Virus record (IMG/VR): IMGVR_UViG_3300020172_003505
Location: 1-21,694 of that record
Strand: one strand, 5' to 3'
Length of the DNA: 21,694 bases
Origin: a virus
Below, one piece after another: positions 1,271 to 20,738 of the stretch. Numbering within the stretch: position 1 is the stretch's first letter; each line of letters starts with the position of its first letter. Below the pieces are notes generated by a model, which did no database searches, was not told the DNA's origin, and was given only the letters and a program-made list of their open reading frames with translations. Position numbers and translations under genes: made by a program.

Positions 1271-2794
1271 ATGGATGTGATTTTTTTAAACAGCGACCCT
1301 ACTACCCAAATTAATTTTAATCGAACAATCGGTCCTTACAAGATTGCACATTGGTTGAGAAAACATGGCTATCAAGCCCAGGTGGTTGATTTTATTTCTC
1401 GATTCAGTGAAGAACAACTGTACAACATGGTCACCCATTTTATTACTCCTAGTACTTCAGTTATTGGTGTATCTACTACATTCTTAACCAACATGCGATA
1501 CAAATGGCCAAACAATGAAACTAGAAGAATTCCCTACGAAATGTGGAAGGTTTTAACAAGAATAAGAAAAGAGTATCCTTACATTAAGATAGTTGCCGGT
1601 GGTTACATGAGTGATCGAATTCCAGATTACGGAATTTTTGATGATACTGTTATGACCTACACGGGTTCAAATGAAGATGCCTTTTTGGAATATGTGAAAT
1701 ATGTTAAAAAACAAGGAAAAGCCCCATTGGGTACACTGACATTCCCTTCTATGAAAAGCAGAGAGAATAGACCAAGAATGGTGTACAGTAGTCCTAGATC
1801 TACTACCTACAACATCGAGACTGATGATTTTAGATTTACCAAACAAGACGGAATACTGCCTAACGAGCCTTTACCTTTAGATGTAAGCAGAGGTTGTATC
1901 TTTGCCTGTAGATTCTGTCAATATCCACACTTAGGAAAAGGTAAACTAGACTACATTAGAGGCATGGAGTATCTTGAAGAAGAATTAAGACAAAATTATG
2001 AGAATTTCGGCACCACCATGTATTACATGTTAGATGACACATTTAACGATACTGAGTGGAAAATGGGCGAGTTTTTAAAAATGACTCAAAGATTGCCATT
2101 TAAAATTAACTATGTTTCATACTTACGTGCTGACCTAATACATAGATTTCCAGACACTGCACACATGCTCAAAGAATCTGGATTATGGGGTGCTTATCAC
2201 GGAATAGAAAGCCTACACCCGTATGCCAGTAATCTAGTAGGTAAAGCATGGAGTGGAAAATCTGCTAGAGAATTCATTCCTAAATTATTTCATGATATTT
2301 GGAAAGGCGAAATTCCTCAAACATTGAGTTTTATCGTAGGGCTTCCTAAAGAAACCAAAGAGGATGTGTTATCTACCAAAGATTGGTTTATCGATAATAA
2401 CCTGTACAATGCTCACTTCAAAGGCTTGGCATTATTTGGCAAAGATAACGAAGCATCTCGATATAGTATCCATTCTGAATTTGATAAAAATTCAGAAAAA
2501 TATGGATTTTGGTTTGAAGAAGGGGTTGGCGGTTTTGAAGGAATTCAAGGGTGGCGTAACGAAACATGGACAGAAAAAGAAGCCAGAGATTTTGGCGATG
2601 ACATGAATCAAGCTGTAAGACATCACGCAAGACCTATGAATTGGATGTCACCATCGTTTCTTTGGATGGGCTGGGAAAAGGAGTATATAATGACAACTCC
2701 CTGGGATAGATTATTCACAACTCATAGAAAAGATATTGCCAATTTCAATCAAAGCAAATATCAAGAATATTACAATTTGATAATGTCTATGTAA
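1271..2794 (+). CDS. Radical SAM protein with an N-terminal B12-binding-like domain
   Basis: The radical SAM signature CX3CX2C is present as C209-I-F-A-C213-R-F-C216, within DVSRGCIFACRFCQYPH. It would bind the 4Fe-4S cluster that cleaves S-adenosylmethionine. Residues 1-150 look like a Rossmann-type domain (VIFLNSDP, IGVSTTF, KIVAGGY, TYTGSNEDAFLEYV), the layout of cobalamin-binding radical SAM enzymes. The DxHxxG motif for base-off cobalamin is absent. A later segment (YHGIESLHP) fits the radical SAM barrel. The length of 507 residues is normal for the class. The substrate is unknown. The gene stands alone on the plus strand between a late promoter and a terminator, and it is noticeably AT-rich, so it may be an acquired accessory gene. 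Confidence 0.88.
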   Translation: MDVIFLNSDPTTQINFNRTIGPYKIAHWLRKHGYQAQVVDFISRFSEEQLYNMVTHFITPSTSVIGVSTTFLTNMRYKWPNNETRRIPYEMWKVLTRIRKEYPYIKIVAGGYMSDRIPDYGIFDDTVMTYTGSNEDAFLEYVKYVKKQGKAPLGTLTFPSMKSRENRPRMVYSSPRSTTYNIETDDFRFTKQDGILPNEPLPLDVSRGCIFACRFCQYPHLGKGKLDYIRGMEYLEEELRQNYENFGTTMYYMLDDTFNDTEWKMGEFLKMTQRLPFKINYVSYLRADLIHRFPDTAHMLKESGLWGAYHGIESLHPYASNLVGKAWSGKSAREFIPKLFHDIWKGEIPQTLSFIVGLPKETKEDVLSTKDWFIDNNLYNAHFKGLALFGKDNEASRYSIHSEFDKNSEKYGFWFEEGVGGFEGIQGWRNETWTEKEARDFGDDMNQAVRHHARPMNWMSPSFLWMGWEKEYIMTTPWDRLFTTHRKDIANFNQSKYQEYYNLIMSM

Positions 2795-2816
2795 AATTCT
2801 AAATTAGCCAAAAGAA

Positions 2817-2840
2817 AACCCGCCGAAGCGGGTTTTTTTT
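2817..2840. terminator. Bidirectional intrinsic terminator
   Basis: The stem AACCCGC/GCGGGTT has a four-base loop. It is followed by eight T on the plus strand and, on the minus strand, by TTTTCTTTT. It lies between two convergent genes and can end both. On the minus strand the loop is the stable UUCG tetraloop closed by C-G. Confidence 0.92.
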
Positions 2841-2855
2841 ACCATCTAATTAAAA

Positions 2856-3407
2856 TTAGAAACTAAAGCCTAGGCCTAGACCATAAGCATTTTCTTTGAT
2901 GTCTTGATAACTCTTACTTGCGTTTAAGTTAAGTGCAACACCTTTGGCAACTGGAATACTGTAAGTAGCAAAAGCAACTGTTTGTTTAGTTTCGACTGCG
3001 GCAGTAGTTCCAACACGGGTCTTAACACCGGCTAGGGCAAAACCTGAACCAACTGGACGACCTGCTGTAGCACCAACTAGACCGTATGTGTAGTCTGCGC
3101 CTTTAGCACCGTTGAAACCATTGTCGTAACCAACACCAACAAATGGTGTGATACCGGCAACATTGATCTTGCTGTTAGCAACTGTAGTCTCTAAGCTGTT
3201 TAACATGCCGCCACCGTCAACGGTAGCAGTACGAGCTTGTAGACCCAATTGGTAAGCACCAAATCCTTTGCCTGCACGAACATACTGTGCTGTGCTGTCT
3301 TTTGCCCCGTTAACACCTTTGACAGCGTCGACATCTACAGAGACATAGTCTGCGGCAAACGCAGTACTAGATAGGGCCAAAGCCAAGATTGCAAAAATTT
3401 TCTTCAT
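2856..3407 (-). CDS. Outer-membrane beta-barrel-like protein with signal peptide
   Basis: The chosen start is the ATG at 3407 (MKKIFAILALALSSTAFAAD). It has AAGGAAA upstream and begins a textbook signal peptide with an AFA-A cleavage site near residue 18. An upstream in-frame ATG would add 24 residues that spoil the signal. The mature part is about 165 residues of alternating short polar/hydrophobic strands rich in Gly and aromatics (GLQARTATV, ITPFVGVGYDNGF, ALNLNASKSY). It ends in Phe (GLGLGFSF), the C-terminal signature recognised by the Bam machinery. This predicts a small eight-stranded outer-membrane barrel. It looks bacterial, perhaps picked up from a host. Roles could include altering the infected-cell surface or superinfection exclusion, as with lambda Lom, but nothing in the sequence decides. 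A late promoter lies at 3454-3461. Confidence 0.82.
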   Translation of the reverse strand: MKKIFAILALALSSTAFAADYVSVDVDAVKGVNGAKDSTAQYVRAGKGFGAYQLGLQARTATVDGGGMLNSLETTVANSKINVAGITPFVGVGYDNGFNGAKGADYTYGLVGATAGRPVGSGFALAGVKTRVGTTAAVETKQTVAFATYSIPVAKGVALNLNASKSYQDIKENAYGLGLGFSF

Positions 3408-3453
3408 TTTAATTTCCTTTGAATAATAAGAGATTTTAATTCTCCTATGGTGA

Positions 3454-3461
3454 TATTTATT
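3454..3461 (-). promoter_or_regulatory. T4-type late promoter core (AATAAATA)
   Basis: AATAAATA on the minus strand lies 46 bases before the ATG of the outer-membrane protein gene. It is downstream of the tmRNA terminator, so it gives this gene its own transcript. Confidence 0.6.
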
Positions 3462-3492
3462 GTATGCTGTACTGGTCATTAAATATCTTGAT

Positions 3493-3517
3493 AAAAGAAA
3501 ACCCGCCGAAGCGGGTT
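3493..3517 (-). terminator. Intrinsic terminator of the tmRNA gene
   Basis: On the minus strand the stem AACCCGC-UUCG-GCGGGTT is followed by TTCTTTT. The 25 bases are identical to 2810-2834, the terminator beyond the outer-membrane protein gene. Confidence 0.88.
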
Positions 3518-3560
3518 CTGGTGGTTTCTGTTACGAGGTATTTCCTACCCTAAGCCGAGT

Positions 3561-3593
3561 TTAGGCGGCTAAAGCGAACTGTTCGTCGTTTGC
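3561..3593 (-). other. tmRNA tag-peptide reading frame (ANDEQFALAA-stop)
   Basis: The codons are GCA AAC GAC GAA CAG TTC GCT TTA GCC GCC TAA. The frame would resume at GCA, which is preceded by CGTAAAT, and ANDE matches the E. coli start of the tag. The C-terminal LAA is the ClpXP degradation signal. The tag type resembles beta- and gammaproteobacterial tags more than alphaproteobacterial ones. Confidence 0.93.
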
Positions 3594-3701
3594 ATTTACG
3601 GTTTTTGTGTCTTCGGCCGGGTAACCCCAACCCTAACGGCTTCTACATTGCCGGACTGTCCATTTCATTACTCTTGACCCAATCGATCCTGTGTCAGGCC
3701 C

Positions 3702-3768
3702 ATCATAAAGAATACTACTGAATTGTGTTGGATGGCGCCATCCGCAAAAACCTGTGCAATATTCTTTA
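3702..3768 (-). other. Intervening segment removed from the permuted tmRNA precursor
   Basis: This 67-base segment joins the mature CCA end to the mature 5' end. Perfect 10-base inverted repeats, ATAAAGAATA at 3705-3714 and TATTCTTTAT at 3760-3769, extend the acceptor stem. A perfect 14-base palindrome (GGATGGCGCCATCC, 3730-3743) sits in the loop. This is the expected form for a precursor whose two ends are freed by RNase P and 3' processing. Confidence 0.82.
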
Positions 3769-3837
3769 TGGTGGACCTGGCGGGCACTGCCCCCGCGTCT
3801 TGAATCCTTTTCAATCTACTTCATACAGTCTTAACTT

Positions 3838-3945
3838 TTAGTACAATAGTCCATAGGCTATGCACCAAATTTCTAAACCTAATTTGTATGCTATGTATGC
3901 ACCTAATAGGCACCCTGTTAATTTTAATGTTTGAGCGATGTTCAT
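3838..3945 (-). CDS. Small hydrophobic protein, 35 residues, upstream of tmRNA
   Basis: The frame runs from ATG at 3945 to TAA at 3838 (MNIAQTLKLTGCLLGAYIAY, then KLGLEIWCIAYGLLY). It is mostly one hydrophobic segment, so a single-pass membrane peptide is possible. A late-promoter core ends exactly six bases before the ATG, so the mRNA would be leaderless. The stop codon abuts the predicted 5' end of the tmRNA acceptor piece, so ORF and tmRNA probably share a transcript. No family is recognised. The frame could instead be only the leader of the tmRNA transcript. Confidence 0.5.
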   Translation of the reverse strand: MNIAQTLKLTGCLLGAYIAYKLGLEIWCIAYGLLY

Positions 3946-3950
3946 AGCTG

Positions 3951-3958
3951 TATTTATT
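3951..3958 (-). promoter_or_regulatory. T4-type late promoter core (AATAAATA) upstream of the small ORF and tmRNA
   Basis: AATAAATA on the minus strand begins right after the TAA stop of the methylase gene (3961-3959). It ends six bases before the ATG at 3945. It is the only convincing promoter I see for the tmRNA, which suggests late expression. Confidence 0.6.
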
Positions 3959-5987: not shown

Positions 5988-6869
5988 TTAAACCACTTTT
6001 ACGCTACCGCCGCCGCCACTGTAAGTGACTGGTTTATCATAATCAAGGGGAATTGGCCAGCCACGACACACCGCAACAATTGGCATACCGCTGGATTTAA
6101 ACCCAACTTCTGTTAGATTATCACTTTGATTTCCGCCTGCAATTAAAACAGACCCTGTGCTAGGATTGTATCCTCTAAAAAATCCAACGTGGCCACCACC
6201 TGCTCTACTGAATACAACAATGTCATTCAGTCTCCACTTTCCTTTGTCACTTAACGGAATAGATTCTCCGTATTTTGAATAAGCTAAACTACTCAATGTT
6301 TTAAACGCAGGTGCGCCCGCAGATTTTAATACATATCCTGTGTAGGCAGCACACCAAGGAGTGCTGTCTCCGCTGACATTAAATCCAACAGTCTTGTAAC
6401 AATTAACAATCTTTGGATTGGATCCTGTTTCTTTCCATCCACCACTTTTAGCTTCTGCTAGCGATGCATCGATAATCTTAGCAACATCAACAAATAGGCC
6501 AGTCGATGACGTTGAGACTGCAAATGTAGAAGTAGTTGACTCTTCAGTTGAACCTGCCGCGATTGCAGAATTAGATTGTGTAAGAGTTAACGGGCCTTCT
6601 TGCGGTACCTCTCCCTTATTGCTTAAACCTACTTCAGCAGTATTAGGATCAGATGCGGCCAATGCCTGTGAGGCAGTGATTGCTTCTAATTGTGTTTGAG
6701 ATAACGACACCACAGTTCGTTCTGCCATTGACAGACTTCCAGTGGCGCCAGGGGCTAGCCATAATGCAACGGGAACAGAATTAATGAAAACATTCTCGGT
6801 ATGGTAAACATCGGCAACTTCAACTCGTCCGCTATTTCCTTGCGAGGTTCCTCCTGGTACATATGGCAT
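5988..6869 (-). CDS. NlpC/P60-like peptidoglycan hydrolase fused to a phage structural-type N-terminus
   Basis: Residues about 130-272 fit the TIGR02594-type cysteine peptidase family: STPWCAAYTGYVLKSAG with nucleophile C173, a low-complexity-free core, NDIVVFSRAGGGHVGFFRG with H227, and LIAGGNQSDNL with N247/Q248 as the likely third site. Such enzymes cut peptide bonds in peptidoglycan. The first 50 residues (YVPGGTSQGNSGRVEVADVY) and a Thr/Ser/Ala-rich linker at 55-125 suggest a virion anchor, so this may be a tail- or baseplate-associated lysin, although an endolysin is possible. There is no signal peptide. AAGGAG lies before the ATG. A Gly-rich tail ends the protein. Confidence 0.82.
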   Translation of the reverse strand: MPYVPGGTSQGNSGRVEVADVYHTENVFINSVPVALWLAPGATGSLSMAERTVVSLSQTQLEAITASQALAASDPNTAEVGLSNKGEVPQEGPLTLTQSNSAIAAGSTEESTTSTFAVSTSSTGLFVDVAKIIDASLAEAKSGGWKETGSNPKIVNCYKTVGFNVSGDSTPWCAAYTGYVLKSAGAPAFKTLSSLAYSKYGESIPLSDKGKWRLNDIVVFSRAGGGHVGFFRGYNPSTGSVLIAGGNQSDNLTEVGFKSSGMPIVAVCRGWPIPLDYDKPVTYSGGGGSVKVV

Positions 6870-20447: not shown

Positions 20448-20738
20448 ATGTCAAATTTTGAAACACCAAAGCTACCAGAAGTTAAATTTAACAAGAACGG
20501 CTACGAAATCCGTACTGACATTCTAGCAATGGCCAAAGACCTAGTAGGTCAAGAATATCATGCTAAGTACATGGGCTGGGAAGTCAGCGCCGAGCGTGAT
20601 GAAAAAACTGGACAAATTGTTAACAAAGTAAACATGCCAGAGTTTCCAGGTCTAGAAAAGATCCTTGAAACTGCTGAAAAGATGTACGGCTTTGTTAATC
20701 AAGGCGTTAATCAAGTTAGCAAGGCCACTAAGAAGTAA
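20448..20738 (+). CDS. Phage hypothetical protein, 96 residues
   Basis: The protein MSNFETPKLPEVKFNKNGYE, then IRTDILAMAKDLVGQEYHAK, GWEVSAERDEKTGQIVNKVN and FPGLEKILETAEKMYGFVNQ, is one I recognise as a recurrent uncharacterised type in aquatic T4-like phages. It has two helices around a short beta hairpin. The strong AAGGAGA ribosome-binding site and its own promoter region and terminator suggest abundant expression. Whether it is a virion part or an infected-cell protein is not visible. No catalytic motif is present. Confidence 0.76.
   Translation: MSNFETPKLPEVKFNKNGYEIRTDILAMAKDLVGQEYHAKYMGWEVSAERDEKTGQIVNKVNMPEFPGLEKILETAEKMYGFVNQGVNQVSKATKK

Follow-up and report, generated by a model that had tools for sequence, protein, structure and literature searches.

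A phage family of predicted ten-stranded outer-membrane barrels and its recurrent linkage to permuted tmRNA genes

Phage-encoded outer-membrane proteins and phage-borne tmRNAs are both known. The former include Lc/NmpC of phage PA-2 and Lom of phage lambda, which alter the host surface, originate from temperate phages and belong to sequence families other than the one described here; we know of no tmRNA partner for either. Lc/NmpC of the E. coli phage PA-2, a phage-borne porin, is reportedly tied to porin replacement and provides a precedent. The cyanophage outer membrane barrel domain Phage_OMP (PF24653) is, by its Pfam name, likewise a phage-encoded outer-membrane barrel. According to the accessible part of its description, the aquatic myophage Melnitz, a Methylophilales phage, also carries a permuted tmRNA, as do 17 of 47 contigs related to it; in Melnitz, the tmRNA gene immediately precedes a transcription coactivator gene and is accompanied by a glutamine riboswitch (PMC9004378). 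The same part of the article describes no pairing with a barrel gene and does not contain the word 'porin' (PMC9004378), and the accessible part of PMC6802176 mentions neither tmRNA nor porin nor outer membrane.

Here, we analyzed a stretch of 21,694 nucleotides of viral DNA (IMG/VR record IMGVR_UViG_3300020172_003505, hereafter the window), in which a gene for a small predicted barrel directly follows a permuted tmRNA gene. The literature searches that we made, judged by titles and the beginnings of abstracts, returned no paper on a recurring tmRNA-barrel pair in phages or on this family of barrels.

Gene, family and predicted fold of the barrel

The following features define the barrel gene:

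2856..3407, minus strand: open reading frame P0001 for a phage outer-membrane beta-barrel protein of 183 aa, family A (reading frame, IMG/VR relatives, AlphaFold2 model)
3354..3407, minus strand: putative Sec-type signal peptide, residues 1-18 (MKKIFAILALALSSTAFA; read by eye, model helix at residues 2-12, low pLDDT at 14-17)
2859..3353, minus strand: predicted mature ten-stranded barrel (AlphaFold2 model mc3e06e58d0d4, lumen-side conservation)

The initial annotation had proposed a phage-encoded outer-membrane barrel with a clear signal peptide, a strand-rich body and a C-terminal Phe at these positions. The reading frame indeed exists, on the minus strand, and its product begins with MKKIFAILALALSSTAFA followed by ADY and ends in LGLGFSF (GLGLGFSF), which confirms the terminal Phe. 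An n-region with KK, a hydrophobic core and an AFA cleavage motif agree, by eye, with the signal peptide that had been claimed, and the family A proteins occurring in the tmRNA sets described below satisfy a crude home-made signal-peptide rule. The program-made reading frame starts 24 codons further upstream, at 3479; the MKK start is possible in all 60 usable relatives (as TTG in one of them) and is preceded in the window by a AAAGGAAA-type ribosome site.

Relatives were collected in IMG/VR, where the best 80 of 100 were kept as loci. As 63 of these best 80 match with E-values of 1e-27 or better, the barrel reading frame is not a product of chance. After removal of partial matches (L064-L080) and truncated genes (L027, L062, L063), 60 usable loci with 48 distinct family A proteins were left. 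Alignment A1 consists of P0001 and 47 relatives, L020 being omitted for its TTG start. Its invariant columns are scattered over the whole barrel, and the C-terminal residue is F or Y in all 60 complete relatives. For P0001 and five relatives, dN/dS (NG86) runs from 0.051/0.331 to 0.185/1.304. With dN far below dS and with a family of relatives, it is evident that the barrel gene is real and under purifying selection.

AlphaFold2 run on A1 returned a model with a pLDDT of 88.2, a pTM of 0.79 and ten strands (residues 21-31, 38-49, 52-63, 68-78, 86-95, 106-119, 122-132, 142-154, 157-168 and 172-182). The body of the protein is therefore strand-rich, as had been proposed, although the eight-stranded barrel that was expected has to be replaced by one of ten strands. 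The model corresponds to a closed antiparallel barrel with an even strand number, closure being judged from structural matches and not from coordinates. Among the Foldseek matches, outer-membrane barrels rank first (chitoporin, NspA, invasin; best E-value 7e-6) with TM-scores mostly of 0.3-0.55, and the scores against PDB barrels are only moderate (OpcA 2vdf, 0.48 of the model). VIA-align put OpcA (1k24) on top with a Z-score of 18.1 and 2.7 Å over 162 residues; Pla (2x56) reached 17.0 with 3.5 Å over 166 residues, omptins about 14-17 and a Legionella porin 16.7. Soluble barrels of the nitrobindin type (VIA-align Z 12-14) were taken to reflect shared geometry.

OpcA of Neisseria (1k24, 2vdf) and the omptins (Pla 2x56, OmpT 1i78), which VIA-align ranks among the best matches (Z-scores between 18.1 and 14.7), are ten-stranded outer-membrane barrels as well. 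They differ from the family A barrel in sequence, with 9-14% identity, and in their extracellular loops, which are longer than the 3-10 residues predicted for family A. Over the fold alignment, OpcA and P0001 share 13-14% identity, and a search of PDB sequences gave no match below an E-value of 0.5; binary-toxin pore chains that appeared there at 0.5-1 were taken as chance. P0001 does not contain a single histidine, and the omptin active site, whose catalytic residues we take to be Asp and His, is therefore absent. BFVD holds barrels from uncultured Caudovirales phages that are either without annotation or labelled 'porin domain': A0A6J7WKY7 (TM-score 0.92, 56% identity to the window barrel) belongs to the same family, and A0A6J5TAD3 reaches a TM-score of 0.79 at 26% identity. 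Positions presumed to face the lumen, the two sides being assigned by hydropathy alternation and not from coordinates, are polar and more conserved than lipid-side positions in ten out of ten strands, and R44, R59, E73, D95, K129 and R131 are invariant charges in the presumed lumen of family A. Mean conservation amounts to 3.00 bits in strands, 2.40 in turns and 2.47 in predicted loops; the loops are not hypervariable, as an arms race over receptors might have made them.

On the basis of profile searches, family A is a group of phage barrels for which Pfam, PHROGs and NCBIfam offer no model. P0001 matched no Pfam family at E-values up to 10 and nothing significant in PHROGs and NCBIfam. The best Pfam match among the 48 members of A1 was Porin_4 (PF13609; E 4e-4, one member), the gathering cut-off of which is not reached by P0001; Porin_4 porins have sixteen strands as opposed to ten in family A. 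Phage_OMP was not matched by P0001 and is touched by four of the 48 family A members (best E 0.022). Contig scans for a bacterial origin brought up no relatives in 32 stretches with the family alignment as query and none in 52 stretches with a phage porin, weak negatives given that exact short peptide patterns were needed. Among 50,697 phage records, P0001 found no convincing match (two at an E-value of 1 only). Taken together, the reading as a phage-encoded outer-membrane barrel is backed by the predicted fold and by the family relatives: the fold comes out as a barrel, and the PHROG search turned up no homologue known from virions.

The permuted tmRNA gene and the barrels on its 3' side

Directly upstream of the barrel gene, a tmRNA gene was found that the initial annotation, whose coordinates do not cover it, had missed:

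3496..3889, minus strand: permuted (two-piece) tmRNA gene (ARAGORN, Rfam)
3561..3593, minus strand: tmRNA tag reading frame, ANDEQFALAA* (ARAGORN, Rfam)
3498..3519, minus strand: intrinsic terminator of the tmRNA gene (z -3.78; hairpin sequence identical to that of the barrel gene)
3951..3957, minus strand: ATAAATA upstream of the tmRNA gene, possible late-type promoter (position only)

ARAGORN calls the gene at 3470-3861, and Rfam matches it as beta_tmRNA at 3496-3889 (103 bits, cut-off 84) and as tmRNA_permuted at 3561-3830 (112.9 bits, cut-off 47). A permuted tRNA-like domain, a tag frame and scores above gathering, as required for permuted tmRNA (RF04321 / RF01850), are all present. Against named phages, the matches of the window tmRNA were confined to short stretches around its terminator hairpin. 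Its T-loop (3785-3791, minus strand) reads GGCAGTG or close to it instead of TTCGATT; similar T-loops occur in L001, L003, L004, L006, L021 and L022 and not in L029, L033, L035 and L053. This variant may indicate a tmRNA of alphaproteobacterial type. In Rfam, L001, L002, L004 and L047 match alpha_tmRNA, and the window, L021, L022 and L028 match beta_tmRNA. Three permuted tmRNAs (L008 6615-7060, L009 6590-7078, L016 4120-4609) were given odd ARAGORN tags of 26-27 residues, e.g., ANANTKGEVAINARGVKIARRAAVLA, which are either real or miscalled. Related phages also contain tRNA genes with a CTA anticodon (L006 7342-7414, L007 9719-9795; tRNA-Pyl in ARAGORN), possible amber suppressors, of which that of L007 scores 50.9 bits as tRNA in Rfam. 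SmpB was found in none of 24 contigs, each with family A or a phage tmRNA.

Linkage was counted from both sides. The 60 family A loci reduce to 43 non-redundant ones, 34 of which have a tmRNA within 3.1 kb, on the same strand in all 34; 28 of these tmRNAs lie 5' of the barrel gene, 21 of them within 350 nt, and six lie 3'. Their positions were taken from ARAGORN, Rfam, a whole-contig search of 48 records and, in a few cases, tag scans, those in L026, L040, L042 and L061 resting on a tag match or a sub-cut-off Rfam match. The remaining 9/43 loci are without a tmRNA within this distance; in L017 it is about 11 kb away, and L020 is a contig of 6.4 kb. On contigs that measure 20 kb or more and contain the two genes, these are near each other in 17 of 18 cases (1.1 expected from random placement), a count that covers contigs in which a tmRNA was found and leaves out the others. 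The pairing occurs in contigs of up to about 350 kb.

From the other side, phage tmRNAs were collected by tag pattern as set 1 (at least 120 loci), set 2 (other tags, at least 120 loci) and set 3 (29 loci), the last being biased and not independent because it was picked by a tag known to accompany family A. Among 61 listed loci of set 1, barrel-like genes of several kinds were noticed just 3' of the tmRNA. The rule for calling a gene barrel-like (signal peptide, C-terminal aromatic residue with alternating hydrophobics, no helix) was fixed before set 2 was seen. The permuted form is present in 173 of 269 tmRNA loci, 153 of them non-redundant. Among the non-redundant permuted loci listed, the first 3' gene is barrel-like in 16/57 cases in set 2 and 6/53 in set 1, as compared with 35 of 2273 other reading frames of at least 100 aa (Fisher 7e-15 and 3e-4, respectively, ignoring common descent as do all linkage tests here); this count is independent of any distance limit. 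Distance limits of 1.6 and 2.4 kb were set after the distances in all sets were known, and the counts based on them call for at least 2 kb of 3' sequence and exclude 67 of the 269 loci without a recognized form as well as 29 standard-form loci. A barrel-like gene on the same strand lies at most 1.6 kb 3' of the tmRNA in 19/57 listed loci of set 2, with 0/57 on the opposite strand and 0/47 on the 5' side, where reading frames within 400 nt of the tag were skipped so that about 2 kb were covered. The corresponding figures for set 1 are 8/50 by rule, or 7/50 after L145, a lipoprotein that satisfied the rule, was removed by hand, with one case on the opposite strand and 0/44 on the 5' side. The 3' side thus differs from the 5' side with Fisher values of 2e-6 (set 2) and 0.01 (set 1). 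Contigs L240 (set 2) and L102 (set 1) had already been part of the family A search; without L240, set 2 yields 18/56 (4e-6). The biased set 3 gives 9/11. Outside the 3' stretch, 15 of 1956 reading frames satisfy the rule. Second barrel-like matches in L118, L091 and L286 look like hydrolases. The notion that such genes are uncommon in T4-like phages can therefore not be upheld for permuted-tmRNA phage loci, at which they are frequent (19/57 and 7/50 of the loci listed). On the other hand, about two thirds of the set 2 loci are without a barrel-like gene there, and 9/43 family loci are without a near tmRNA; the pairing is thus not obligate.

Several kinds of barrel occupy this site. For a second group, family C, eight long strands are predicted; NspA, OmpA and OprF come close in fold (Z about 17-18). 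Full Porin_4 porins occupy the equivalent site in phages L283 and L318 (E 5e-28 and 2e-18), and Gcw_chp proteins (PF09694; L096 3942-4655, L134 4130-4867; E 2e-53 and 1e-45) follow right after the tmRNA on phage contigs. A third group, family B, was called barrel-like from the rule and weak outer-membrane protein matches only; its member L223 matches the C-terminal half of Porin_4 with E 1.2e-5 (25.7 bits, cut-off 27), and hhalign relates family B to the C-terminus of the phage porins with 77-79%. A PEP_mutase match of one family B member, below the cut-off, was taken as chance. Signal peptides proved to be treacherous in these comparisons. An apparent end-to-end homology of families A and B (hhalign 95%, 173 columns) fell to 2% once they were cut off and was withdrawn; A and C align with 96% on the signal peptide alone and, without it, with 54% over 23 columns; and between family A and the phage porins only the signal peptide aligns (0.6% without it). 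Without signal peptides, B and C align weakly with 82% over 109 columns, B and the porins reach 79% over 64 columns, and C and the porins 51%. Single-linkage clustering merged most of the barrel-like proteins, probably via their signal peptides, and was discarded. Neither a group-2 family A member nor single representatives of family B, family C and the porins found a convincing match among the 50,697 phage records. As far as sequence comparison goes, the barrels at the tmRNA site are of different kinds without provable kinship outside the signal peptide, which argues that a barrel is retained while its kind switches; fast divergence from one ancestor would be the alternative.

With regard to the phages themselves, T4-type portal genes were found in 14 of 24 contigs searched, each with family A or a phage tmRNA, so that the assignment to T4-like phages is supported for such contigs. 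The window carries ribonucleotide reductase genes and encodes a Dam-type methyltransferase, a radical SAM protein and proteins matching virion and lysozyme PHROGs. Apart from P0001, two window proteins were compared with the 50,697 phage records without a convincing match, one of them being the radical SAM protein (507 aa, 1271-2794, plus strand). A 475-aa protein encoded 3' of the tmRNA in L114 resembles the radical SAM protein by eye. Two further proteins are repeatedly encoded 3' of phage tmRNAs, a short one starting with MSNMTPFEIRLEL and an endolysin of Hydrolase_2-like type (L118 2304-2795, L155, L131, L096 and others), and the window has a protein that resembles the former by eye (20448-20738, plus strand). 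In L117, L144 and L145, the position of the barrel gene immediately 3' of the tmRNA is taken by a gene for a small secreted protein (MRYIALLMLLWTTVSFA..., about 100 aa).

Expression signals

Three further features surround the barrel gene:

3454..3461, minus strand: late-promoter-like core AATAAATA (sequence, position before the start)
3426..3448, minus strand: small, statistically non-significant hairpin (-6.4 kcal/mol, z -0.89) in what is presumably the 5' leader
2815..2836, minus strand: intrinsic terminator downstream of the barrel gene (hairpin AACCCGCTTCGGCGGGTT followed by a T run, z -3.71)

The gene had been thought to lie under a late promoter core. AATAAATA (3461-3454) is indeed present, with TAAATA beginning 52 nt before the barrel start, and differs from TATAAATA by one letter. 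In the window as a whole, ATAAATA shows no excess (10 occurrences versus 7.2 expected; 10 were reached in 18 of 100 shuffles), although NATAAATA is found at most 90 nt upstream of 6 of the 28 gene starts listed. Hairpins comparable to that at 3426..3448 were seen by eye in some relatives, and terminator-like sites in the scanned region are not in excess (two versus 2.4 in shuffles).

A sigma70-like promoter was found in 23 of 71 non-redundant barrel-gene upstream regions (2.6 expected from mononucleotide shuffles) and a TAAATA core in 23 (12.3 expected), 20 of these cores at 36-57 nt before the start; ten regions contain both promoter types and 35 neither. The barrel gene of the window falls into the TAAATA class. 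Some of the genes with neither type abut the tmRNA, and no terminator was seen by eye. In group 2 of family A (e.g., L031, L033, L035, L053), the ribosome site follows close behind the 3' hairpin of the tmRNA and inspection revealed no terminator, so that transcription in these phages should run on from the tmRNA into the barrel gene. As the mode of expression varies, late expression is possible in the window but cannot be generalized.

Possible roles of the barrel and of its pairing with tmRNA

Going beyond predicted fold, family and linkage, we infer export, membrane insertion and a role at the cell surface. The phage would make a ten-strand miniature barrel with a Sec signal peptide that, judged from this peptide and the C-terminal aromatic residue, would cross the inner membrane via Sec and be folded by BAM into the outer membrane of the host. 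The short-looped barrel would there supplement or replace the host porins, thus leaving fewer receptors for further phages, and the phage tmRNA, possibly in cooperation with the barrel, would in the meantime release ribosomes stuck on cleaved host messages. This change of the host surface, i.e., superinfection exclusion, is the best explanation that we can offer; the initial annotation had likewise named surface remodelling and exclusion, with a lysis role as a further possibility. Two points favor it: true porins are found at the site, and in one classical case a phage-borne porin reportedly plays this part. We advance it tentatively, as something possible and short of probable, and had to lower our estimate slightly because kinship of family A with porins is no longer supported; the non-uniform expression of the barrel genes, loops that are not hypervariable and the non-obligate pairing with tmRNA also speak against it.

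The late-like promoter core in the window would suit a lysis helper acting on the outer membrane, which it would weaken or open as infection draws to a close, beside an endolysin and instead of or together with a spanin. A window protein encoded on the same strand as the barrel (5988-6869) matches tail-lysozyme and endolysin PHROGs (E 7e-18 and 1e-4), and a Hydrolase_2 (PF07486)-like hydrolase lies in the 3' region of the tmRNA, within 2.5 kb, in 16/23 barrel loci of set 2, 4/7 of set 1 and 13/14 of set 3 (counts not de-duplicated). Such hydrolases, however, are also found near tmRNAs without a barrel (16/34 in set 2, Fisher 0.11; 22/40 in set 1, Fisher 1.0). They consequently mark the locus and not the barrel, an association of endolysins with the barrel as such was rejected, and none of the ten window proteins scanned with Pfam matched Hydrolase_2. 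Since the hydrolase is independent of the barrel and timing seems variable, with many barrel genes having sigma70-like promoters or seemingly being read from the tmRNA, help in lysis is unlikely. Upkeep of the outer membrane, which the barrel would keep filled and stable after shut-off of host outer-membrane proteins, delaying premature lysis, is a serious rival to surface substitution, even if we do not consider it likely. Eight-strand barrels of the OmpA type are mainly structural, and retention of a small barrel regardless of its kind, be it of eight strands, of ten or a full porin, fits such a role, which by itself would not explain the two thirds of set 2 permuted tmRNA loci without a barrel. 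A small pore that sustains nutrient uptake in infected, slow-growing aquatic hosts would be in keeping with the full Porin_4 porins at the equivalent site and with the polar, charged and conserved presumed lumen of family A; yet lumen conservation is equally expected from packing alone, and eight-strand barrels, which are usually closed, also occupy the site, making this role quite improbable. The chance that the protein is a component of the virion is very slight: possible late timing and nothing beyond would fit, and the signal peptide, the predicted outer-membrane fold and the lack of a virion homologue in PHROGs all argue against it.

A different kind of explanation, compatible with functional roles, is that the 3' flank of the tmRNA gene, by providing a promoter or terminator boundary, simply takes up genes easily and that barrel and tmRNA are unconnected. 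The barrel gene in the window looks like a unit of its own, with a core resembling a promoter and with the very terminator hairpin that the tmRNA has, and hydrolases and small secreted proteins are among the other first genes after tmRNAs. Points against a mere insertion hot spot are the strong confinement of barrel-like genes to the 3' side and the same strand (one opposite-strand case in set 1) and the position of the ribosome site of group 2 family A barrels, which comes immediately after the 3' hairpin of the tmRNA without a terminator that could be seen by eye. In our estimation, its chances come close to even.

Surface substitution can be extended to a two-part module for takeover of the envelope in T4-like environmental phages, in which the permuted tmRNA frees ribosomes and the slot on its 3' side takes any small barrel that replaces porins. 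We consider this rather improbable as a whole. If it were true, porin messages would be among the most abundant of the cleaved host messages, the short-looped barrels would be unusable by other phages, and the slot would be kept while its occupant is exchanged between unrelated barrels (full porins, eight-strand and ten-strand barrels), on the same transcript as the tmRNA in some phages. Phage contigs that carry full-length porins are documented here. For the question of what purpose a tmRNA of their own serves in virulent phages, the recurring one-sided pairing with a barrel offers a concrete handle: either tmRNA and barrel cooperate, or the locus of the tmRNA ensures that a surface protein is expressed.
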